A stretch of DNA of 27,006 nt, from positions 1 through 27,006 of IMG/VR virus record IMGVR_UViG_3300037961_001086; one strand, written 5' to 3'. Both the position numbers and the translations under genes were made by a program. Below, one piece after another: positions 7,031 to 23,942 of this stretch (the first letter of the stretch is position 1; each line of letters opens with the position of its first letter). The notes beneath the pieces are model-generated. The model was not told the DNA's origin, ran no database searches, and saw nothing but the letters and a program-made list of their open reading frames with translations. This DNA comes from a virus.

Positions 7031-7411
7031 ATGAAAAAGTTTATATTATCATTATGCTTATGGCTTGGACTATCGTCTACATGGCTACACTCGCAGTCAG
7101 TTAACTTAGATAATTTTCAAGCAATACAATTAATGAGCCTAGAAGAGTGTGCTGTAGTACAGGTAAATGCTTCTTGGAACTTTGCTAATAGATTAGACAT
7201 TGCTAAGTTGAAAGATTGTTATATAGCAGAAGTAGACTTAACTAATAAAGCTATTGGTGCAGTAATACAAAAAGAATGGAGTATAAAGGTAGTACCAACT
7301 ATTATTATATTTCAGAATGGTAAAGAAGTAAAACGATTTGAAGCAGGTATATCAATGAAGTTTGATGAACAATCTGTTTTAGAAAACATTAGGAAAGAAA
7401 TTAAAAAATAA
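7031..7411 (+). CDS. secreted thioredoxin-fold protein lacking the CXXC site
   Basis: The 126-residue protein begins with a signal peptide (MKKFILSLCLWLGLSSTW, probable cleavage near HSQ-S). A thioredoxin fold follows: VVQVNASWNFANRLD, then YIAEVDLTN, then SIKVVPTIIIFQNGKEVKRF. The cis-Pro (P89) and the NGKEV hairpin are kept. Where thioredoxins have WCGPC, this protein has W49-N-F-A-N53, so both active Cys are replaced by Asn. It cannot be a normal disulphide exchanger; a binding or structural role in the periplasm, or in the particle, is more likely. Cys remain at 9, 40 and 63. It lies among small membrane genes of the lysis region. GAGGAT precedes the start. Confidence 0.8.
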   Translation: MKKFILSLCLWLGLSSTWLHSQSVNLDNFQAIQLMSLEECAVVQVNASWNFANRLDIAKLKDCYIAEVDLTNKAIGAVIQKEWSIKVVPTIIIFQNGKEVKRFEAGISMKFDEQSVLENIRKEIKK

Positions 7412-12347: not shown

Positions 12348-12862
12348 TGGCAACAGAAGCAAGCAATATTTTGACAATGGTAAGAACTTTTGCAGAGAGA
12401 CAAAAAGAAGAAGAGCTAGATAGACAACTTGCAGATGGACCGCTAGGATATAGTGGTGGATTAGCAGGTTTTATAGATGATATGACAGCAGGTGTATTAA
12501 CTAGAACTGCATTTAAAGAAGGTGAAGAAGCTGTTAAGGATGCTTTTGACACTAGAACTATGAAAGAAAAAATTCAAGATGAAGTAGAAGCATTTAGAGA
12601 AGTGATAGATAGTGGAGACTTTACTGCTATAGATATATTTGATTATGGTATAGCACAATTAAAAGCAAAAGGTGCAGATACAAGTGGAATAGAAAGTTTG
12701 TATCAGCAATATTTACAAGGAACAACATTAACTACAGTTGATGGGAATGGAAATAAAATACAATACCAAGACGTTGGACCTGTTTCTAATTCTACTAGTT
12801 CAGCACCAGGAGATCAAGTAGGTAAGTTTAATCCGTTCTTTAATCCTTATGGTAGGAAATAA
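12347..12862 (+). CDS. virion-region protein of unknown function (171 aa)
   Basis: An acidic, largely helical 171-residue protein coupled at both ends by TAATG. It has an AERQKEEELDRQLADGPLGY segment, a short Gly/Ala segment (YSGGLAGFIDDMTAGVLT) and a tail with KFNPFFNPYGRK. The family is not recognised. Its place between a tail gene and the lysozyme, upstream of the ejection-type proteins, suggests an internal or tail protein. Antisense open frames here are shadows. Confidence 0.72.
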   Translation: MATEASNILTMVRTFAERQKEEELDRQLADGPLGYSGGLAGFIDDMTAGVLTRTAFKEGEEAVKDAFDTRTMKEKIQDEVEAFREVIDSGDFTAIDIFDYGIAQLKAKGADTSGIESLYQQYLQGTTLTTVDGNGNKIQYQDVGPVSNSTSSAPGDQVGKFNPFFNPYGRK

Positions 12863-13359
12863 TGTTTTTAAATATTAAAAATAAATCATTCAAACAAAAG
12901 CTTTATGAACATATAAAGTTAAGAGAAGGTTATAAAGATGTAGTATATTTAGATACTCTTGGTAAACCTACTGGTGGTATAGGTCATTTACTTAGTGCAG
13001 ATGAAAAGAAAAAATATCCTGTAGATTCTATATTAAAAGAAAGTTTAATTAAAGATTGGTATGAAAAAGATATAGAGAAATCTTTAGAAGCTTGTAATGA
13101 GCAATGTAAAATATTAAATATTTATGATAAAGATTTTAAGATTGCATTAACGTCTGTTAACTTTCAACTTGGTACTAAATGGTTTAGAAAGTTTCCTAAG
13201 ACATGGCATGCACTATGTCATAAAGATTATGATTTGGCTATAGCAGAGATAACATATAAAAAACCTGGTGAGCCAGAATACTCTGATTGGTATAAACAAA
13301 CACCAGTAAGAGTAAAAGATTTTGTAGAAGCAATAGAAAATATTAAGGAGAGTGTATAA
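12862..13359 (+). CDS. T4-type lysozyme (glycoside hydrolase 24), endolysin or virion lysozyme
   Basis: The 165-residue protein has the T4 lysozyme catalytic set with exact spacing: E22 in KLREGYKD, D31 in VVYLDTLGKP and T37 in PTGGIGHL (T4: E11, D20, T26). The C-terminal half keeps NFQLGTKWFRKFPKTW and WYKQTPVRVKDFVEAI, matching the end of T4 lysozyme. It cuts the glycan of peptidoglycan. No signal peptide is visible, so release would need the holin. However, its position among virion genes rather than next to the holin leaves open a role in the particle during entry. Coupled by TAATG on both sides. Confidence 0.93.
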   Translation: MFLNIKNKSFKQKLYEHIKLREGYKDVVYLDTLGKPTGGIGHLLSADEKKKYPVDSILKESLIKDWYEKDIEKSLEACNEQCKILNIYDKDFKIALTSVNFQLGTKWFRKFPKTWHALCHKDYDLAIAEITYKKPGEPEYSDWYKQTPVRVKDFVEAIENIKESV

Positions 13360-13697
13360 TGGCACAAGATAAAAAGAAATCACCTGTGCAAATAGCAGGA
13401 GAAAATGAAGCTATGGCTGCAGATAATGTAACCGTAGATCCAAATTATGTTGCTGAAGTAGAAGCACAACAAGCAGAAATGGATAGTACTTTACAAGCTG
13501 AAAGAATTATAGCATTAGAAGAAGCTGAAAATAATACAGACCCTATACCTAATCTTGACTTTCAAAAAGATGTAGAAGCACAAAGACAAGCAACTAAAAA
13601 TGCAGCACAAGCAGAGATAGCAAAGTCATTTGATTTATTCGATATAGCAGAAGATTTAGGTTTAAAGTTTCAACCATTTAAAAACGGGGAGGAGTAA
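13359..13697 (+). CDS. acidic Ala/Glu-rich protein (112 aa)
   Basis: A 112-residue acidic protein with no hydrophobic segment. Long helical stretches rich in Ala, Glu and Gln (VAEVEAQQAEMDSTLQAERI and EAQRQATKNAAQAEIAKSF) end with a DLGLKFQPFKNGEE tail. It may be an internal virion protein or an assembly helper. Its acidic nature contrasts with the basic genes earlier. No family recognised; TAATG junctions at both ends support it. Confidence 0.72.
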   Translation: MAQDKKKSPVQIAGENEAMAADNVTVDPNYVAEVEAQQAEMDSTLQAERIIALEEAENNTDPIPNLDFQKDVEAQRQATKNAAQAEIAKSFDLFDIAEDLGLKFQPFKNGEE

Positions 13698-14275
13698 TGC
13701 CTATATTTGGAGGAGCAATAATTGGTGGTATAAAAGCATTAGCTGCTGGATTTAAAGGAGCAACTGCTTTATCTAAAGCTAGCATGTTATTATCTGGTGG
13801 TCAAATGGCATATGGTGCTTTTGTTAATAAGTCAGAAAGAGAACGAGCAGCTTCTGATAGAGCGGCAACAAGAAAGATGGCTATACAAGGACAGTTAGAT
13901 TTACGTGGTGCAGCTAAAAGTGCAGATGAACGTTCTCTAATAAGACAAGGTTTTATTAATGAAAACGTTGGAATACAAAGTGAAAGTTTTGCTAGAGAAT
14001 CTAGAGGTAGTATGAGGTCATTGGAGTCAAACATTGGAATGGGTGGACTATATGGTTCTGGTTCAGCTGATCAACTAAGACAAGATATGGCAGCTGAAAT
14101 AGCTTCAAGAGGTGCAGGTATGTCTTTAGCAGCATCGCAAGATAGATTCGGTGAAGCACAAAGAAGAGAAGCTGAGTTAAGAGATATACAAAATAGTATG
14201 TTAGAGTTATCTGTATATACAGGTAGAAACTATAATATATTAGATACATATGGTATTAGAAATAATTTAAGTTAA
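13697..14275 (+). CDS. internal virion protein candidate (T7 gp14-like size and layout)
   Basis: The 192-residue protein begins with a Gly/Ala-rich hydrophobic region (FGGAIIGGIKALAAGFKGAT and MLLSGGQMAYGAF). A long charged helix follows (SERERAASDRAATRKMAIQG), then a Gly/Ser-rich segment (IGMGGLYGSGSADQ) and another helix. T7 gp14, an ejected internal protein that forms a pore in the outer membrane, is 196 residues and has a similar N-terminal hydrophobic and helical plan. The next two genes include a giant protein in the place where T7 has gp15 and gp16. I infer an ejection role; sequence identity is not claimed. Confidence 0.68.
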   Translation: MPIFGGAIIGGIKALAAGFKGATALSKASMLLSGGQMAYGAFVNKSERERAASDRAATRKMAIQGQLDLRGAAKSADERSLIRQGFINENVGIQSESFARESRGSMRSLESNIGMGGLYGSGSADQLRQDMAAEIASRGAGMSLAASQDRFGEAQRREAELRDIQNSMLELSVYTGRNYNILDTYGIRNNLS

Positions 14276-14287
14276 AAGGAGTAAGAG

Positions 14288-14890
14288 ATGTCTTATAGTT
14301 CAAGAGTAATTAAATCATTATCAGATCTTGTACAGTCCCTACAACAGTACAATGCTAGTAAAGATGATGCAAAAGATATTGCAAAGGCTTTAATATTAGC
14401 ACAAGAACAAGCTAAGTTGCAAACAGATCAAATGTTGTTACAGAACGCAATAACTACAAATCAAGAATTAGTACAGAGTTCTTTGACAGACATATCTGCA
14501 ATATCAATGAGCGACCAGGGAGAGTTTTCATCAGCTGATTATGATAAGATGGTTGAGAGTACACCATTTTTTGCATTGAGACCTAACAGAAGAATACGTA
14601 AAAGTGCTACTTCTTATATGGATGCGTTCGATGCAGCAGATGCAACTAATCTTAATTACTATTCAAATTTAGAAGCTAAAGCTGCATTGATGGGTAGTGA
14701 TAATGTAGTAGTAGAAAAAACAAAAAGTTTAATTGATGGACAAATAAATCAATTAGAAAATTTATCAGCAACATTAAAAGATACAAAAAACAATGTAGGT
14801 TTTGTACAAGATGATAGATATGATAATTTAATATCAAGAGTAGATACTAAGTTACAACAAAAAATAGAATACAGAAAACGTTTAGACTAG
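14288..14890 (+). CDS. helical virion-region protein (200 aa), possible ejection partner
   Basis: A 200-residue protein with helical, Gln/Asp/Lys-rich segments (KALILAQEQAKLQTDQMLLQ, then LIDGQINQLENLSATLKDTK). There is no clear membrane segment. It lies 12 bases after the gp14-like gene and 7 bases before the giant gene, with GGAGTAAGAG before its ATG. Position suggests a partner of the giant protein inside the head or tail, in the place of a small second internal virion protein. No family recognised. Confidence 0.72.
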   Translation: MSYSSRVIKSLSDLVQSLQQYNASKDDAKDIAKALILAQEQAKLQTDQMLLQNAITTNQELVQSSLTDISAISMSDQGEFSSADYDKMVESTPFFALRPNRRIRKSATSYMDAFDAADATNLNYYSNLEAKAALMGSDNVVVEKTKSLIDGQINQLENLSATLKDTKNNVGFVQDDRYDNLISRVDTKLQQKIEYRKRLD

Positions 14891-14897
14891 GAGTAAA

Positions 14898-17800
14898 ATG
14901 GAATTTAGAAATCCTAATTTAAAACAAGCTATAGCTGGGTTTCAATCTGGTGCATTAGATCAAAGACGTTTTATAGTACAGTTAGATACAATCTATAGAG
15001 CCAACCCTAAATCTTTTACAGAAGAAGAAGTTGATTATATAGAAAAACAATTTAAGAAAACTGATATAAAATTTAACAGAGATTTAGAAGCAGCTGATGC
15101 TAATCTATTAAGCACAGCAAATCAATTTATATCTGGTATGGTAGAAGGTTTTACTACATTAGGTTGGTCAGAAGAGCCTGATACTACAGCAGAATCTATT
15201 GCTAATAAGTTAGGACACTTGATAGGGTTTGCACCTGATGTAGTAGCAAGTGTACTATCTATGGGACAATATGTACCTATTGCTACTGCTAAAGCTATTA
15301 GTAGAAAAAGTGCTGGTGCAGTAAGTAAAGGTCTACAAAAAGCGGGGGAGAAAGCACCTGCTATCTTAAGAAAAGAGTTAGCACCAGATACATTTGCATT
15401 ACAATCAATACCTATGAAAGTTGCTGATGTTGTTATGGACAATGTAAAAGCAAGTTTAGGTAGTGCTAATGTTACAACTACTGGTTATCTATCTAGAGGT
15501 ATATTTGCTAACACTAGATTTAGAGATATAGGAGAACAAGCATTACACTTAGGTGTTGCTATGGGTGTATCTTCTTGGAAAGAAGGACCTAAAGGAGCAG
15601 CAGAAGCAGGAGTATATGGTGCAGCAGCAGGTACATTGTTTGGTACTATAGGTAATTATGTCAATGTTGCACGTTTGATAGCAAATCCTAAGACTACACC
15701 AGTTGGACAAAAGATTGTTAGAGGTGTAGCTAAACGATTAGTAGAGGATGAAGAAAAATATAGAGCAATGAACATGCTTATAAGAGGTTCTCTTGGTGCT
15801 GGAGTACAAGGTGGTATGGCAACAGCACAGCAACTACCTGTAGCAGAACAGGTATATGAATATTTATTAGGTGCTTTCTTTGGTGCTAGTGCTAGAGATA
15901 GAGGGTTTATAGAAAGAACAAGATATATAAATAAAAACTTTGCTAAGTTTGGAGATATTACAACACCAGTAAAAACAGTAGAACAAAAACTTAGAAAAGA
16001 TCCAGACTTTCAAAAACTAAATAAGTTTGACCAAGACTATGTTATAAAACATATTGCAGTAACACAGCAACAAATATTTAATAATATAAATAGAGGTGTA
16101 TTAAATCCTGAAATAGCACAAGAAGTTCGTAGGATAGCAAAAGAATTAGGTATAGAGTTAGAGGTAGCTACACCAAAACAAATAGAAAAGATTACAGAAA
16201 AACTATCTGATAGTCAGATTATAAAGAAAGATTTAGAAGGTATAAAGTATGAGATTAGAGATGATAATGTAATACCAGAAGTGTTAAAAGGTGCAACTCA
16301 AGATTACATAAATGACTTATCATTAAAAGTAGATGATATGATAAGACTAGAACAAAATAAAGATTTGAATGAACCTCTTGTAAACAATTCTGAAATAAGA
16401 GATATAGCTTTAGAGATTAGAAAAATACAAGGTAAAGATGTTACTGATATAGGTAGAGGTAAGGACGAGATACTTGTTAATTTATCTAAGCTAGCAACAG
16501 ATTCTAAGTTTAATTTACCTGAATTTAAAAGATTGATTACAGAAAAATATCTAAAGAAAGTAGAAAACAAAGCAGAGTTTTTTAGAAAAGTAGATGATTT
16601 AAAATTAGGTAGATATTTAAAAACAAAAAAGAATGTTTTCAATAGAGCAGAGTTGACAGTAGATGTAGTAGATGCTGACCCTAACACTGGTGAAATAACA
16701 AAGGTAAATGTTTTTCCTTCACCACATACAGATTTAAAAGGTAATCCTGTTAATACTGGTAGTGGACAAAACAAATATAATGCAGCTATAAAAGCAGGAG
16801 ATGGAGTACCAGTAAGAATTATATTACGTAAATCATACATTATGTCTCAATTACATAAGTATGGTAAAGGTGATAATGCTATAGATGTATTTAGCAAAGA
16901 TGTAGAAAGTCCTTTAGGTTTCCATAAATTAAAAAAAGGTAATCCAGATTTTTTACCTAAAGAAGCCATAGTAAAAATTAGAAAAGCATTGCAAGAACAG
17001 GAAACTCCGTTGTATTTATTTGGTGGTGCTAAAGATAGTGGAGTATTGGTTGTACATAGAGTACCATTTACAGATGCACAATTTAGTTCTGCTAGACAAA
17101 GACAAGTGTTACGTGAGTTAGGTTTAAGTTCTAAGATTGTAAATGCAGAAGGCTATCAAGTAAAAGAAACGGTATCTAATATTTATTATTTATTAAGAGA
17201 GTCTGGATATATGGATGTTAATGATCCGATAACTGTTAGTAATTTAGTAAAAGGTTTGAAGAAGTTTAGAAAGCAACCTTTGTATGAGACTGTACAAGCA
17301 TTTAATAAATATAATAATTTAGCACAAGGTTCTGATATAAGATTAGAAAATGAATACGGATTTATAAAAGACATAGGAGATGAATCTACTTTTAAATTTA
17401 TACAGATAAAAGATTTAGAATCTAAGTTTGAAGTAGGTGGTGTACCTTCTAAGTCAGCTATAGATGCTGTAGTATATGTTAGGCAAGATGTATTTGACGC
17501 TATAAGAAAGAAAAATTATTTATCAAGTCGTAATGGTTTTTTGAAAATGGTAGGATTTAGTGCACCTAGAGATGGAAATGGTACTATATTATTAAAGACA
17601 GGTACATTTAAAGCTACTGAAAAAATGGATGCATTTATGCAGGCTAACAACATACACTTTATGACAGCTGAATCTGCAACAAAAACTAGCCTTGGTTTGA
17701 AAACTCATGACATAGTTTATAAGAATAATAGATGGGATTTTGGTACAGCAGATAAACAGATAAGACCTTATGAGATGCGTGCAGATGAATTGTATTTAAA

Positions 17801-20800
17801 CTTTGGTGTATATGAAAATTACTCTAAGTTAAATATGAGTATGCCTATATCTAAACAAATATTTGATAAAATAAATTATGAACAATTAGGTGAAGATGGT
17901 CCAGCATTTCGTGCTGCTTACGAAAAATTTGTTAATGAATCATTAGCTGGTGATCCTGCAACTAATAAAGCATTTGAAAGAGCATTAGTAAAACAAGATG
18001 GTAATTACGAAATACCAAATTTATTTCGTGTAGATATAGAATTAATTAATAGAGCATTAACAGTAGAACATATAGATACTCCTTTTGGTAGAAATGTATT
18101 AAAGAAAATTATGGAAAGAGGTAATGAAGATTATCATTCTTTAATTTATGAACAAGGAGATGTTATAGATAAAAAATTATTTGGTGTAGAGAATATAGAT
18201 ATACCTGACTTATTAGCACAAAATGATTATAGAATGTCTGCTATTACACATCCAGGAGTACGTGAGTTTGTAAATAAAAGTTTAACAAGTTATTTACATA
18301 TGCGTGCTATCAGACCTACAGCTAGCAATGCAGTAGATATTAAGTTAGGACCAGCAGATTTAGAAGTTGCAGCAGGCTTACAAGACAATCAAGTAAAGTT
18401 TGGTCAAGGTATGAAAAACTTTTTGATTAAAATTAAAGGACAATCTAAACAAGTAAGACTTGAAGATGCTTGGAATACATTTAAGGATATGAAAAAGTCT
18501 GATAATAGATATAATGATTATAAAGAAGCGTTAACTTTTATGGCTATGAGAAATCCTAATAGTGGTAATGGTGGAGTTCGTATATTAGAGATGGCTGGTT
18601 TTGTAGCTAGAGAAGGTACTGCTGCTGTTACTACATCTAAGACTGACTATTACTTAGGTGGTGCAGATAAAGATGCTGATAGTATTGCTTTATATCAAAA
18701 CATGCCTGGTATATTTAAAAAAGTATTTAGTAAATATGAAAGTGAATTGCAACGTGGTAGAGATACATACTCTTTTGAAAATGTAGATCCTCAAAGTACT
18801 TTTGCTACAGAGAAACTAATAGAAGAGTATCCAAATATTAAAGTATCAGAAGGCAGTAGAAAAGCATTAGAAGATTTATTAACAACAGATTCAAGAATAG
18901 ATGTAGCAAGACAAGCAAAGATAGGTAAAGTAAATATAGATTTTATTGTAAGTGGTTTTAATAGAATGCAAGTTGTTGCAGATTTAATACAACAAGAAGG
19001 TGGTGTAATAAATTCTAGACAAGCAATATTAAAAAAGGAAGGGGATAGTCTTGTACCTACTGGCTTGTTTGATAATATAAGTATTAAATTAAAGAAAGGT
19101 GTTGATATAAAGCAATTACAACTTGATACTTATCTTGGTATTAACTATATGGCTGACTCTGCAAACTTTGTAAAGATGGAAAAATATCCTGTAATTTTAG
19201 AAACGTTTTGGAAAAAATATTTTGAAGTAACTAATTTAAATGGTAATAGAAATATTACAGAGTTCCAACAAAACTTTCGTAATGTAGAAAAATTAAATGC
19301 ATTACAAACACTTCATAATGTAGTTTATAAAGGTAAAAATTTATCTAATAGATCTGTTGCAGACAAAGCTGCTTCAGATTATTTAGATGCTTTTGGTAAA
19401 CAGAATCATTTTTATGGTCAGTTAGCTACTGTGATTAATAATTATAGTAGTTTTGGTATTAATCCATTTAAATATTTATTTAGTAAAAACTTTAAAAACT
19501 ATAATAACTATGAAGTTGCAAGAGAATATACATTAAGACTTAGAGAAGAAATAGTAAAGAACGAAGCATTGATAAAACGTTTTGGTATATTAGATAATTA
19601 TACTAGCATTGTTGAAGCTAAAGCTGCTTTAGATAGACTGATTAAGAGTGAAAACTACTCTGCTTTTTATAATAAAATGATTGAATACCAATCTATGCAT
19701 AGGGCTATGGAAATGTCTAATGGTTTGATAAGAACATATGCTGGTAATGAAAGAAGTAAATACAGTAATGATACATTAGAATTAGAAATAAAGAGTCTTA
19801 TTGATAATACATGGACTATTAAATCAATGTTTAACAGAGATTTAAATTTAGTTCCTGAAGGGTTTGCTAAAGAAAACTTATCTATGGCAGACATAAATCA
19901 ATACATATATGTAACTAAAGCAAAGATAAAGGCTAAGTATAAAGACGAACCTTCGTTAGCTAAAGACTTAATAAATGTTTATGAAGCTTGGTTATTGGCG
20001 ACTCCTAAATTAGATAGACCATTAAATGAATTACAACAATCTGCATTAGATACTATTTTTAAAGAAAATAAATTTATAGAACGTGGAACTATAAGTGGTA
20101 ATACAACAAGTAAAGGTTTTGATAATGCATTAGTAAATAAACAAAGAGCATTTTTAGCTTATGCTGGTACACCTAATTATATGTTACAAAGTTTAGCTAT
20201 TAGTGCTAAAGGTAGAAGAGATTATTTTGATTATTTAGAAACACAATTAGTAGATAGATCAGAACGTATATCTAAAAGATTGAATGAACAAAAAAATAAT
20301 CCAGAAGAACACACATTAGAATCATTAGCAAAAGAAGCAGCAGAACAAGATGTGTCTGTAAAAGATAATATGAAAAGAATATTAGATACAGAAGCTTTGG
20401 TAGGTACAGTGTTAGAAAAGTTTGACTTTGTAAAAACTAATACTGGTAATAGAAATAAAGCAATAACTCGTGATGCAGATAAACAACTTAAAAGATTACA
20501 AAGTTTATTAAGAGAAAGTCCTGATGCTATTATGAGATTAGAAGAACAGTTTATAGAACTTACATATAGACTAGAAGGATTAGGTAGAAGATTAGATACT
20601 GCCAATGTAAAAGATTTAAAGTTATTTGTTGATGCATTAGAAGTTTATTGGAGTGCTAAGAAACCTGGTGATAAAGTGAAAAAGTTTTTTAGAGCACCTG
20701 GTGGTAGAGATAATATATTAAATTATACATACACTCAAAGAGATTTAAGACTAATGGAAAAAATGGAAAGAGAAACAAATCCTAGATTAGTTTTAGATAA

Positions 20801-23800
20801 GTTTGGTAAGATAGTACCAATGAGAATTAAAGTTCCAACAAGTACATTAGAGTTAGGTAGATTAACTATTGATAGATTTGATACGTTTCAAAAGACTATC
20901 AATGCAGCACAACAAGATAAGATAAATGGATTATTTGAATATTTAAACAATGACAATCCAAACTTAATACAATATAGAGATTTATTATTTGAAGCAGCTG
21001 TTAATAAAATAGAATGGAATGATGGTAAGTTTCCAAGTAATACCTATAATAAATTACAACAAGAAGCTATTAGAAAGGCATGGTCAGAAAGTTCTGAAGC
21101 TTTATCTAAATTAGAAAAAGAAGGTATAATGTTTGACATGTCTAGTCCAGGTGGTAAAGCTGTAAGAAAAGATGTTACTGCTAATGAGTATGTTGATCGT
21201 ATTGTAAAAGATGTAAAAGAATTTTTATCTGATATACAAAAAGTATATATTGATTCACGTGTTGATATGTTAGAAAAAACATTACCAAGAAGATCTAAAA
21301 AGTTTATTGGTTCTAATACTAAAGACAAGAACACAAAGAGATTAGAAGATTTGTTTTTAACTGAAACAGGGTTGATAGATTTGAATACTGTTAACTTATT
21401 GTTTAAAGATTTATCTAATAGAAATGTAAGTGAACGTGAGTATATTGGTAAGTTTTTAATTAGTATAAATGATTATAGATTTATTAAACATCACTTAGAA
21501 GTATTTGATAGAATACAATTTAAACTTGGTGATAAAATAGATTTGAATAAACCATTGAATAGTAAAAATAAAAATATTGTAAAAGGATTAGTCTTGCAAG
21601 AACTAAACTCTACTAAAAATAAACCTGACTATTATGAAAGGTATGCTGTCGGTAAAGTAGAAGAAGGATACTTTCCTAGAAATGGACATGGTAGAAATGA
21701 AGCTGAAAGAAAAGAGTTAGAAGCTTGGAATGAGAATAGAGCATTAGAACAATTAAAAGAAGCTGCTGAAGATCCAACTCAATTACCTGAAAAAATTAGA
21801 GTTGAAATGGAGTTAGGTAATATTGACATGCAACAAGCATTGTCTTTATATAGAGAACAATTACTAGGTAATGCAGCTAGAAATACAAACCAATCTTTAA
21901 CATCAGGACAAGCAGAAGCAGAAAGACAAATAATAGATTTGTTAAGTAGGCCTAACATAGATGGATTTATTGGTGATTATGCAGCAGGTAGTACATTAAA
22001 AAGAGGACAAGACTTTATGCCTTTTTATAGAAAAGATTTAGATGCATTGCGTAATTACACTGGTGGATTATTTAAAATGTGGTTTACAAACTTAGCTGGA
22101 TTAAGAAGTGAAGTATTATTGAAACAATTTGATTATGCAAATAAAGGTGAAACGTATGCAAGAGATTGGTCTAACTATATGAGAAATGCTTTTACAAATA
22201 TGATGGGACTTAGTACCTATAGAGCATATAATATACATGGTATTGAAAAGAAAGACCAACAAATGTTTAGAGACTTTATTGCAAGTGGATTTAAAAGAGG
22301 TAAATATTCTGGACATATGAAAGATAAAATTATTGATTTTGAAATTGCTATTGAACCATCACCTGTAGAAAAAAGAATTATATTAAGAAGACAAGATAAA
22401 AGTTTATCTACTAAAGAAAGACAAAAGGCTGCTAATAAAGAAATACTAGCATTGAAAACAAAACGTGCTAAAGAATTAGTTGAACAAGTAAATACTACAG
22501 GTAAGTATGGTACATTGTATCACTACACAAGTGATGAAGCAGCAGTAAGTTTCTTTAAAAAAATTGATAAATTATTTGGTGGTAGAATGTTTAAGGATCT
22601 AAACAAGATGAGTGAACGTGATAAGAACTTTGAAATCATTAGACGTATTAGAGACTTTAGTGATTTAGAAGGTAAGTTTGAGCTATTGACATTACTATCA
22701 CACCCTAAAACAGCTATAACTAATTTATATGGTGGTACTCAAAACACTATATCTGATACAGGTTGGAAACCATTTAGGCAAGCTAATGATACAGAGTGGA
22801 TGATTAAAAATTTATTTGATAATGGTAAAGCAGAATTTAGTTTTTTAAACCAACAAACTGGTAGGGTAGAAAGAAAAAGAATTAATACCAAAGAAAGAAT
22901 ATATGAATGGATGGAGTCTTTAGGTGTATTTGATCAGATGTTTTTAGACCTTGTTGCATTAGATAAAAACTTTGGTAGACAAGGACAAAGAAAGTTTTTT
23001 GAAGAGTTTATTAGACGTATGAATAAATCATACAGAGAAGGTATTATAACTACTGAAACAATACATAATAGAGAAGCTAAAAAAACATTAAGAGAAGTTG
23101 CAAGAGATTTAAAAATAGAAGTACCTGTTACTGAGTTAGGTGCTTTACCAATGAAATGGTCTGAAAGAATATTGCGTGGTAATGCTTTCTTAGCAAATTA
23201 TATAAACTTACATCAGAATGTTATAGGTCCTAATATTGCAAAAGGAATACCGTTTGATAGTAGAGTATTGACTAACTTTGCTATGAAAGGTATTGAAGCA
23301 TCTCAGTTTATGTATCAAGCAACCTTTAGACCTAACTTTGCCAACACATCATTAGGTCGTGTATTGACTAGATTCCAACCTTATGCATGGAATAGTATTG
23401 GTAGACGTATTAAATTATTTAAAGATGCACAACAATCTGGATGGAACAGAGAAGTATTAGCAAGTAAAAAGTTTCAAAGACAATTTACATTTGATCTAAT
23501 GGCTCTTGCTATGGCTAATATATTTGTAGCAAGTATATTTGAATATGCATTATCACCACCTATGAATTGGTTACAAGATAGTGCAGCATTATTATTTGGT
23601 GATGAGAAAGAAAGAGAACGTGCATTCTTTAGTTCATATCCATCACCTGTATTAGCACCTTTACAAATTGTTACACCACCTATTGGTAGATTTGTATTGT
23701 CGCCAATTACATCTATATTGAATGGTGATATGGAAAACTTTACTAAGTATCAGTTAGCTACATACTTTCCATTTGGTAGGTTAGGTAGAGATGCATATAG

Positions 23801-23942
23801 AACATTCAATAGTCCAGCTATGGCTGTAGATTTTATGACTGGATTACCTTTACATCAAGTTCATGAGTTAAGAAGAGATAAGATTGAACTAGATAAATTA
23901 GAACAACAAGCTAAAGAATTAGAAGAAGAGTTAGTAGAATAG
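14898..23942 (+). CDS. giant virion protein with two-barrel RNA polymerase core (probable ejected virion RNA polymerase)
   Basis: At 3014 residues this is one third of the window. Three Gly/Ala-rich hydrophobic regions lie at about 105-135, 215-268 and 293-334. The polymerase-like core lies at about 850-1350: DAVVYV (856-861), an LLKTGTF lysine (K900), an IHFMTAESATK lysine (K929), LYLNFGVYENYSK, R1218-N-P1220 with SG, a YLGGADKDADSIALY metal site (D1257, D1259, D1261), and AKIGKVNIDF (G1343-K1344). Order and spacing match the two double-psi-barrel polymerases of crAss-like phages and QDE-1/YonO relatives. The remaining ~1650 residues are mostly helical, with an LLSHPKTAITNLYGG segment near 2600 and hydrophobic segments near 2867-2886 and 2912-2935, ending in a coiled coil. 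I infer packaging and ejection. A gene start with GGAG lies 7 bases after the previous stop. Confidence 0.8.
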   Translation: MEFRNPNLKQAIAGFQSGALDQRRFIVQLDTIYRANPKSFTEEEVDYIEKQFKKTDIKFNRDLEAADANLLSTANQFISGMVEGFTTLGWSEEPDTTAESIANKLGHLIGFAPDVVASVLSMGQYVPIATAKAISRKSAGAVSKGLQKAGEKAPAILRKELAPDTFALQSIPMKVADVVMDNVKASLGSANVTTTGYLSRGIFANTRFRDIGEQALHLGVAMGVSSWKEGPKGAAEAGVYGAAAGTLFGTIGNYVNVARLIANPKTTPVGQKIVRGVAKRLVEDEEKYRAMNMLIRGSLGAGVQGGMATAQQLPVAEQVYEYLLGAFFGASARDRGFIERTRYINKNFAKFGDITTPVKTVEQKLRKDPDFQKLNKFDQDYVIKHIAVTQQQIFNNINRGVLNPEIAQEVRRIAKELGIELEVATPKQIEKITEKLSDSQIIKKDLEGIKYEIRDDNVIPEVLKGATQDYINDLSLKVDDMIRLEQNKDLNEPLVNNSEIRDIALEIRKIQGKDVTDIGRGKDEILVNLSKLATDSKFNLPEFKRLITEKYLKKVENKAEFFRKVDDLKLGRYLKTKKNVFNRAELTVDVVDADPNTGEITKVNVFPSPHTDLKGNPVNTGSGQNKYNAAIKAGDGVPVRIILRKSYIMSQLHKYGKGDNAIDVFSKDVESPLGFHKLKKGNPDFLPKEAIVKIRKALQEQETPLYLFGGAKDSGVLVVHRVPFTDAQFSSARQRQVLRELGLSSKIVNAEGYQVKETVSNIYYLLRESGYMDVNDPITVSNLVKGLKKFRKQPLYETVQAFNKYNNLAQGSDIRLENEYGFIKDIGDESTFKFIQIKDLESKFEVGGVPSKSAIDAVVYVRQDVFDAIRKKNYLSSRNGFLKMVGFSAPRDGNGTILLKTGTFKATEKMDAFMQANNIHFMTAESATKTSLGLKTHDIVYKNNRWDFGTADKQIRPYEMRADELYLNFGVYENYSKLNMSMPISKQIFDKINYEQLGEDGPAFRAAYEKFVNESLAGDPATNKAFERALVKQDGNYEIPNLFRVDIELINRALTVEHIDTPFGRNVLKKIMERGNEDYHSLIYEQGDVIDKKLFGVENIDIPDLLAQNDYRMSAITHPGVREFVNKSLTSYLHMRAIRPTASNAVDIKLGPADLEVAAGLQDNQVKFGQGMKNFLIKIKGQSKQVRLEDAWNTFKDMKKSDNRYNDYKEALTFMAMRNPNSGNGGVRILEMAGFVAREGTAAVTTSKTDYYLGGADKDADSIALYQNMPGIFKKVFSKYESELQRGRDTYSFENVDPQSTFATEKLIEEYPNIKVSEGSRKALEDLLTTDSRIDVARQAKIGKVNIDFIVSGFNRMQVVADLIQQEGGVINSRQAILKKEGDSLVPTGLFDNISIKLKKGVDIKQLQLDTYLGINYMADSANFVKMEKYPVILETFWKKYFEVTNLNGNRNITEFQQNFRNVEKLNALQTLHNVVYKGKNLSNRSVADKAASDYLDAFGKQNHFYGQLATVINNYSSFGINPFKYLFSKNFKNYNNYEVAREYTLRLREEIVKNEALIKRFGILDNYTSIVEAKAALDRLIKSENYSAFYNKMIEYQSMHRAMEMSNGLIRTYAGNERSKYSNDTLELEIKSLIDNTWTIKSMFNRDLNLVPEGFAKENLSMADINQYIYVTKAKIKAKYKDEPSLAKDLINVYEAWLLATPKLDRPLNELQQSALDTIFKENKFIERGTISGNTTSKGFDNALVNKQRAFLAYAGTPNYMLQSLAISAKGRRDYFDYLETQLVDRSERISKRLNEQKNNPEEHTLESLAKEAAEQDVSVKDNMKRILDTEALVGTVLEKFDFVKTNTGNRNKAITRDADKQLKRLQSLLRESPDAIMRLEEQFIELTYRLEGLGRRLDTANVKDLKLFVDALEVYWSAKKPGDKVKKFFRAPGGRDNILNYTYTQRDLRLMEKMERETNPRLVLDKFGKIVPMRIKVPTSTLELGRLTIDRFDTFQKTINAAQQDKINGLFEYLNNDNPNLIQYRDLLFEAAVNKIEWNDGKFPSNTYNKLQQEAIRKAWSESSEALSKLEKEGIMFDMSSPGGKAVRKDVTANEYVDRIVKDVKEFLSDIQKVYIDSRVDMLEKTLPRRSKKFIGSNTKDKNTKRLEDLFLTETGLIDLNTVNLLFKDLSNRNVSEREYIGKFLISINDYRFIKHHLEVFDRIQFKLGDKIDLNKPLNSKNKNIVKGLVLQELNSTKNKPDYYERYAVGKVEEGYFPRNGHGRNEAERKELEAWNENRALEQLKEAAEDPTQLPEKIRVEMELGNIDMQQALSLYREQLLGNAARNTNQSLTSGQAEAERQIIDLLSRPNIDGFIGDYAAGSTLKRGQDFMPFYRKDLDALRNYTGGLFKMWFTNLAGLRSEVLLKQFDYANKGETYARDWSNYMRNAFTNMMGLSTYRAYNIHGIEKKDQQMFRDFIASGFKRGKYSGHMKDKIIDFEIAIEPSPVEKRIILRRQDKSLSTKERQKAANKEILALKTKRAKELVEQVNTTGKYGTLYHYTSDEAAVSFFKKIDKLFGGRMFKDLNKMSERDKNFEIIRRIRDFSDLEGKFELLTLLSHPKTAITNLYGGTQNTISDTGWKPFRQANDTEWMIKNLFDNGKAEFSFLNQQTGRVERKRINTKERIYEWMESLGVFDQMFLDLVALDKNFGRQGQRKFFEEFIRRMNKSYREGIITTETIHNREAKKTLREVARDLKIEVPVTELGALPMKWSERILRGNAFLANYINLHQNVIGPNIAKGIPFDSRVLTNFAMKGIEASQFMYQATFRPNFANTSLGRVLTRFQPYAWNSIGRRIKLFKDAQQSGWNREVLASKKFQRQFTFDLMALAMANIFVASIFEYALSPPMNWLQDSAALLFGDEKERERAFFSSYPSPVLAPLQIVTPPIGRFVLSPITSILNGDMENFTKYQLATYFPFGRLGRDAYRTFNSPAMAVDFMTGLPLHQVHELRRDKIELDKLEQQAKELEEELVE
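17445..18947 (+). other. two-barrel RNA polymerase core inside the giant gene
   Basis: This region encodes residues about 850-1350. The first barrel holds K900 and K929, 29 apart; the second holds R1218, P1220 and the D-x-D-x-D triad at 18666-18680. In the family the lysines contact the incoming nucleotide and the aspartates hold catalytic magnesium. The R-x-P to aspartate distance here is about 39 residues, close to the 35 or so of bacterial beta-prime. The borders are estimates from motifs, not from a structure. Confidence 0.72.

Follow-up and report, generated by a model that had tools for sequence, protein, structure and literature searches.

A giant late-cluster protein of an uncultured phage carries a probable two-barrel RNA polymerase with a lysine in its metal-binding loop

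The DNA analysed here (the window; 27,006 nt of IMG/VR record IMGVR_UViG_3300037961_001086) comes from an uncultured phage, probably a marine one on the wording of an earlier sequence-only reading. Its largest feature is a giant ORF that is the final gene of the structural (late) cluster, as seen from the gene order in the window and in G001 (IMGVR_UViG_3300030116_002299), a 44.8-kb contig nearly identical to the window across the giant-ORF region (Table 1). Tail-fibre-like genes, a metallophosphoesterase, a 797-aa gene, a phage lysozyme and three small genes precede it on the + strand, and the opposite strand bears a DnaB-type primase-helicase and a RusA-like gene. G001 also has matches to a terminase (Terminase_6C), a P22-like portal (P22_portal) and an SU10-like capsid protein (SU10_MCP), so that the giant ORF, behind the lysozyme and the small late genes, closes a terminase-portal-capsid-tail cluster. 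The portal of G001 is P22-like, and nothing in that contig was recognised as a long-tail tape measure. The order of the small genes before the giant ORF is kept in G001 and in two further contigs, G002 (69.5 kb) and G003 (89.8 kb; L069-L077 for the two), and the pair immediately 5' of it would occupy the slot of podovirus internal virion proteins. Relatives of the giant protein in IMG/VR are about 2,450-3,450 aa long.

Several neighbouring genes are worth recording in their own right. A small thioredoxin-like gene with a signal-peptide-like start (window 7031-7411) is conserved in the late clusters of G001, G002 and G003. The divergent early block of G001 contains JAB and ThiF genes, where a JAB-protease-like gene (Prok-JAB, under the cut-off; L067 18306-19166) adjoins a ThiF/E1-like gene (L067 19166-19813; together G001 38306-39813), and similar genes occur in the early blocks of G002 and G003. 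JAB and ThiF/E1 genes occur as pairs in known systems of ubiquitin-like conjugation and of anti-defence. G002 and G003 each contain two structural clusters and two giant RNA polymerase (RNAP) ORFs, with the motif pairs DKDAD + DFDID and DKDAD + DKDID. They may be assembly chimeras or concatenated phages, so no single-genome claim is based on either of them alone.

Table 1. Positions of the features discussed (window coordinates unless a contig is named)
Feature	Position	Strand	Basis or remark
Giant ORF, 3,014 codons, carries RNAP core	14898-23942	+	ORF list
Modelled two-barrel RNAP core, residues 554-1603	16557-19706	+	AlphaFold2 with Foldseek and VIA matches
Beta-like barrel DPBB-B (approximate), residues 831-973	17388-17816	+	Model strands; limits inferred
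K883, invariant Lys, beta-like barrel	17544-17546	+	34/34 family; 60/60 rows with a residue
K900, invariant Lys, beta-like barrel	17595-17597	+	34/34 family; 60/60 rows with a residue
K929, invariant Lys, beta-like barrel	17682-17684	+	34/34 family; 61/61 joint rows
Beta-prime-like barrel DPBB-A (approximate), residues 1145-1270	18330-18707	+	Model secondary structure; limits inferred
R1218-x-P1220, counterpart of the conserved Arg-x-Pro before the metal loop	18549-18557	+	61/61
DKDAD putative metal-binding loop, residues 1257-1261	18666-18680	+	Bases, alignments, locus scans
C-terminal helical region, kept in relatives	22020-23939	+	Alignment; low-confidence model (pLDDT 60)
Phage lysozyme gene, same late cluster, upstream	12862-13359	+	Pfam PF00959, E 9.5e-7
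Two small genes immediately 5' of giant ORF	13697-14275, 14288-14890	+	Position
Sigma-70 promoter/TTAGTATACTYTAAGTA block	G001 33194-33262 (two copies); G002 36336; G003 11101		
Single-copy element AAAAATGCAACTAGAATGTGTGTG, TATATA a few bases on	G001 33509-33531 (= L067 13509-13531)		Before early genes

The DKDAD motif is not a chance DxDxD, to judge from its conservation. The textbook metal motif is NADFDGD, and a lone DxDxD among 3,000 residues means little. The window reads GAT AAA GAT GCT GAT in frame within the giant ORF, as the sequence-only reading had described; its mention of two Lys is ruled out, since the motif holds one, and three more invariant Lys (K883, K900 and K929) sit in the upstream barrel. 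Every one of the 34 rows of the family alignment has GGADKDAD, including members with as little as 17% identity to the window protein, and this stretch is among the few fully invariant residues together with R1218, P1220 and the three upstream Lys. Across 44 loci (21 distinct 24-mers), the motif codons differ synonymously only (GAT/GAC, AAA/AAG, GCT/GCA).

Searches of IMG/VR extended this conservation to a wider set of relatives. A first scan with part of the protein returned two relatives at ~50% identity and one near-copy, and D-K-D-x-D was retained at all three loci; a motif-based DNA pattern gave 15 loci, and a profile scan gave 47, down to 22% identity. One pattern of the profile scan included the motif, so the scan was redone with two patterns outside it, from an upstream-region profile. 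D-K-D-x-D was present in 25 of the 25 loci examined in this way (x = A, S or G), some on contigs that had already turned up in earlier scans. A sister group, first located through its position in a contig, shows DKDID in every member of a scan whose patterns again lay outside the motif. The outside-motif scans of both groups therefore indicate that the Asp triad and the Lys are fixed, and that the fourth residue may be A, S, G or I. Free replacement of the triad, the observation that the sequence-only reading had set against its own proposal, was not seen: the triad is invariant in every relative covering it, and the motif Lys is kept at all 25 loci of the outside-motif scan.

The predicted fold places the motif in a two-barrel RNAP core. 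An AlphaFold2 model of residues 554-1603, built from the 34-row alignment, has a mean pLDDT of 81.9 and a pTM of 0.81. Its first Foldseek match in the PDB is phi14:2 gp66 (6vr4; E 2.1e-11), followed by QDE-1 (E 7.9e-5) and then by beta-prime chains of cellular RNAPs. VIA-align gave Z scores of 16.6 for QDE-1 (587 residues), 13.2 for gp66 (685 residues) and 11.6 for the non-virion RNAP P74-26 gp62 (471 residues), and the match lengths of 587 and 685 residues mean that both barrels are spanned. The features that characterize the superfamily are found together, namely two double-psi barrels sharing one active centre within a single chain (model core against QDE-1 and gp66), a DxDxD motif in the second barrel with an invariant triad, and the first-barrel Lys and the Arg before the triad (60-61 of 61 sequences from four groups). 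The model of the C-terminal helical region was too poor for a fold search (Table 1).

Sequence homology to crAss-like RNAPs is suggested by one local profile match, and the wider case is structural and draws on the predicted model. Against a profile of 11 crAss-like sequences, hhalign aligned 60 columns of the second barrel, with DKDAD on DFDID and R-x-P on R-x-P (probability 78.6, E 1.7e-5), while a profile of the family's C-terminal region, used as a negative control, gave a probability of 0.1 and an E of 0.47. This profile alignment and the fold together point to DKDAD as the counterpart of DFDID. In the first barrel, three Lys columns are held in common with the crAss-like enzymes. The model would place the giant-ORF RNAP on the crAss-like/QDE-1 side of the superfamily, with template-directed RNA synthesis as the predicted activity.

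The DKDxD enzymes form a lineage of their own. We aligned 61 sequences (44 DKDAD, 5 DKDID, 2 DFDID and 10 crAss-like), in which the columns conserved in at least 90% are K883, K900, K929, R1218, P1220, F1235 (56/61), G1255 (59/61), D1257, D1259 and D1261, nearly all of them catalytic. Position 1258 is Lys in 49 rows, comprising the 44 DKDAD and 5 DKDID sequences, and Phe in 12, and position 1260 is Ala in 44, Ile in 14 and Val in 3. In a maximum-likelihood tree, DKDAD and DKDID make up one group (support 97/97) with DKDID nested among DKDAD, the DFDID giant-ORF sequences take a separate branch, and the crAss-like rows fall on their own side of a branch (100/99) that includes no DKDxD row. The tree, which covers these four groups, is unrooted and has long branches, so its deeper order is not claimed. 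The protein does not belong to the crAss-like gp66 family, either by its grouping or by a DFDID/DFDVD motif. The fold match, the alignment of DKDAD on DFDID and the 97/97 clade support the earlier suggestion that the catalytic loop has diverged and defines a branch of its own.

Two conserved blocks are shared by the early regions of G001, G002 and G003. The first, where the early region begins, combines a perfect sigma-70 promoter (TTGACA-17-TATACT) with an overlapping TTAGTATACTYTAAGTA repeat, and it looks like a regulated promoter read by the host. A host whose sigma-70 promoters are canonical would suit TTGACA/TATACT better than Flavobacteriaceae. The sole GTDB hit, L105 (DIAL01000052.1), is a short contig with a DKDAD RNAP fragment in a Flavobacteriaceae MAG (UBA5079); it is a weak host clue and may reflect phage contamination. 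The second block lies about 300 bp beyond the sigma-70 promoter and outside the window. It consists of a 23-bp element, AAAATGCAACTAGAATGTGTGTG, with exact matches in 23 IMG/VR contigs (L131-L153), one per locus, located 90-260 bp upstream of the first same-strand ORF of at least 40 codons. The element is conserved far more than its surroundings, and the TATATA past the 23 searched bases is invariant in 19 distinct flanks.

The 23-bp element may be a promoter of the giant-ORF RNAP, but the same picture would arise from an origin, from a packaging site or from a leader read by the host. Of 11 contigs that were newly found through the element and checked for the RNAP, it is carried by four, which are the four longest (all >25 kb), and two of these have DKDID. 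Allowing up to three mismatches, the element occurs in 7 of 27 contigs carrying this RNAP or its kin; no match to it was found in the DKDSD-type, DKDID (L089, L091) or DFDID contigs that were checked, a set that includes fragments. A 16-mer repeat search for multi-copy promoters gave nothing useful, a sigma-70 scan 5' of the giant ORF gave fewer hits than shuffled sequences, and Rfam had no match in the window or the early region.

We consider it likely that the product of the giant ORF is a DNA-dependent RNAP with both barrels in a single chain, and that it would be packaged in the virion, pass into the cell alongside the DNA and transcribe the early genes there. The three Asp would hold Mg2+ at the barrel interface, as in known two-barrel RNAPs. 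In such enzymes, contacts to the end of the transcript and to the incoming NTP come from the first-barrel Lys, and those to the nucleotide from the Arg; by these counterparts, K883, K900, K929 and R1218 would touch the transcript, the nucleotide being added or the phosphates of that nucleotide. The Lys in place of the aromatic residue is a fixed feature of the clade that leaves the triad intact, with A, S, G or I tolerated before the last Asp. Ejected internal proteins sit at the end of the structural cluster in many short-tailed phages. Because the gene takes the last position of the structural cluster and has phi14:2 gp66 and P23-45 gp96 as precedents, packaging and early transcription would by analogy be its likeliest role, and the C-terminal helical region is possibly an ejection or membrane part.

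An active two-barrel RNAP that stays out of the virion and serves middle or late genes, with host RNAP reading the early ones, appears unlikely. The perfect host-type sigma-70 promoter before the early genes of three related contigs means that these genes could be host-transcribed, and non-virion two-barrel RNAPs are known, as in P23-45 gp64 (PMC10770324). However, such relatives are small (about 590 residues in gp64, against 3,014 in the giant protein), and here the gene ends the structural cluster and the core is fused to about 2,000 more residues, of which the helical C-terminal part is conserved, as in injected proteins. That the core is a degenerate, inactive remnant with a structural role in an ejected protein is very improbable; a remnant used structurally was the other possibility named in the sequence-only reading. 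The unusual Lys within the metal loop and the failure of any sequence family to recognise the core would suit a remnant, but the three Asp, the three Lys and R-x-P stay invariant down to 17% identity in an alignment that varies at most other columns. The motif codons change only synonymously, and the motif is kept at 25 of 25 loci sampled with patterns outside it. Because every alignable catalytic-site residue withstands such strong divergence, we rejected the pseudo-enzyme reading. A two-barrel enzyme with another activity, such as RNA-templated or DNA synthesis (QDE-1-like or PolD-like), is scarcely credible. The best structural Z does belong to QDE-1, a copier of RNA and DNA templates, but the top Foldseek match is the phage vRNAP gp66 and the context is a dsDNA phage with its own primase-helicase.

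The lineage was previously unannotated. Neither Pfam nor PHROGs yielded a credible match to the RNAP region, whether in the giant protein or in its relatives, the lone PHROG match being to the C-terminal part of one relative (L061) and of unknown function. No phage record in INPHARED was matched by tblastn with five queries, the window protein among them, and a sequence profile run against PDB chains gave chance hits only. A search of 18 related contigs for a T7-type RNAP found no match, and its control was likewise without signal. In BFVD, unnamed viral models match well (best E 4.5e-28), so relatives are probably present in UniProt without a name. Neither DKDAD/DKDID nor an enzyme with Lys at that place was found in the open-access literature, and activity is therefore not assured.

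The RNAP fold and the probable function are already known; what is new, within the searches made here, is the loop variant, the lineage that has it and its occurrence in small phages. From sequence conservation and the predicted model, the DKDxD lineage looks like a working and probably injected polymerase. The residue between the first two Asp is Phe in all crAss-like enzymes compared, and a clade with Lys there and the rest of the active site kept suggests that the position is not tied to an aromatic side chain. The clade thus offers a natural variant for probing the role of this residue. It widens the range of giant and probably injected two-barrel RNAPs to include compact phages missed by the protein family libraries used, and the analysis yields a candidate promoter and a defined core construct. 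For P23-45 gp96, a construct of more than 1,050 residues was needed (PMC10770324). More tentatively, the clade may consist of small phages in which an injected two-barrel RNAP, with a loop Lys that would bind nucleotide or phosphate, is served by one highly conserved early promoter per genome, a possibility about which we are doubtful.

The closest named system is phi14:2 gp66 (PDB 6vr4; KC821624), the virion RNAP of a crAss-like phage, which the title of the PDB entry calls virion-packaged. Like the window protein, gp66 carries both barrels in one chain and is encoded by a large gene in the virion region, and the two have the three Lys, R-x-P, the three Asp and the Gly that precedes this triad by two residues in register, with 39 residues from the Arg to the first Asp in both. 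In contrast, gp66 has DFDID in place of DKDAD and 2,180 rather than 3,014 aa, its genome is about 100 kb against 44.8 kb for G001, and the two proteins show no BLAST-level similarity and fall in separate tree groups. The giant ORF of other IMG/VR phages (L078-L080) has the same three Lys, R-x-P and triad, but its motif is the canonical DFDID and Glu replaces the Gly two residues before the triad. A DFDID giant-ORF RNAP candidate with this Glu and an 885-aa companion ORF is also seen in L069 (3173-11491 and 516-3170, both on the - strand), as in L078-L080.

QDE-1 (7y7p, 2j7n), the fungal RNAi polymerase, has the highest structural Z to the core model at 9% identity and copies both RNA and DNA templates; unlike the phage protein, it is a eukaryotic cellular enzyme of RNA silencing. 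YonO of the Bacillus prophage SPbeta (PMC5467207) resembles the window protein by description, as a single-chain two-barrel phage RNAP. P23-45 gp96, a giant tail protein with a vRNAP at its N-terminus (PMC10770324), similarly embeds a two-barrel RNAP within a giant protein, there a virion protein; its motif is DFDGD and its carrier is a tape measure protein from a long-tailed phage, whereas here the motif is DKDAD and the portal is P22-like.
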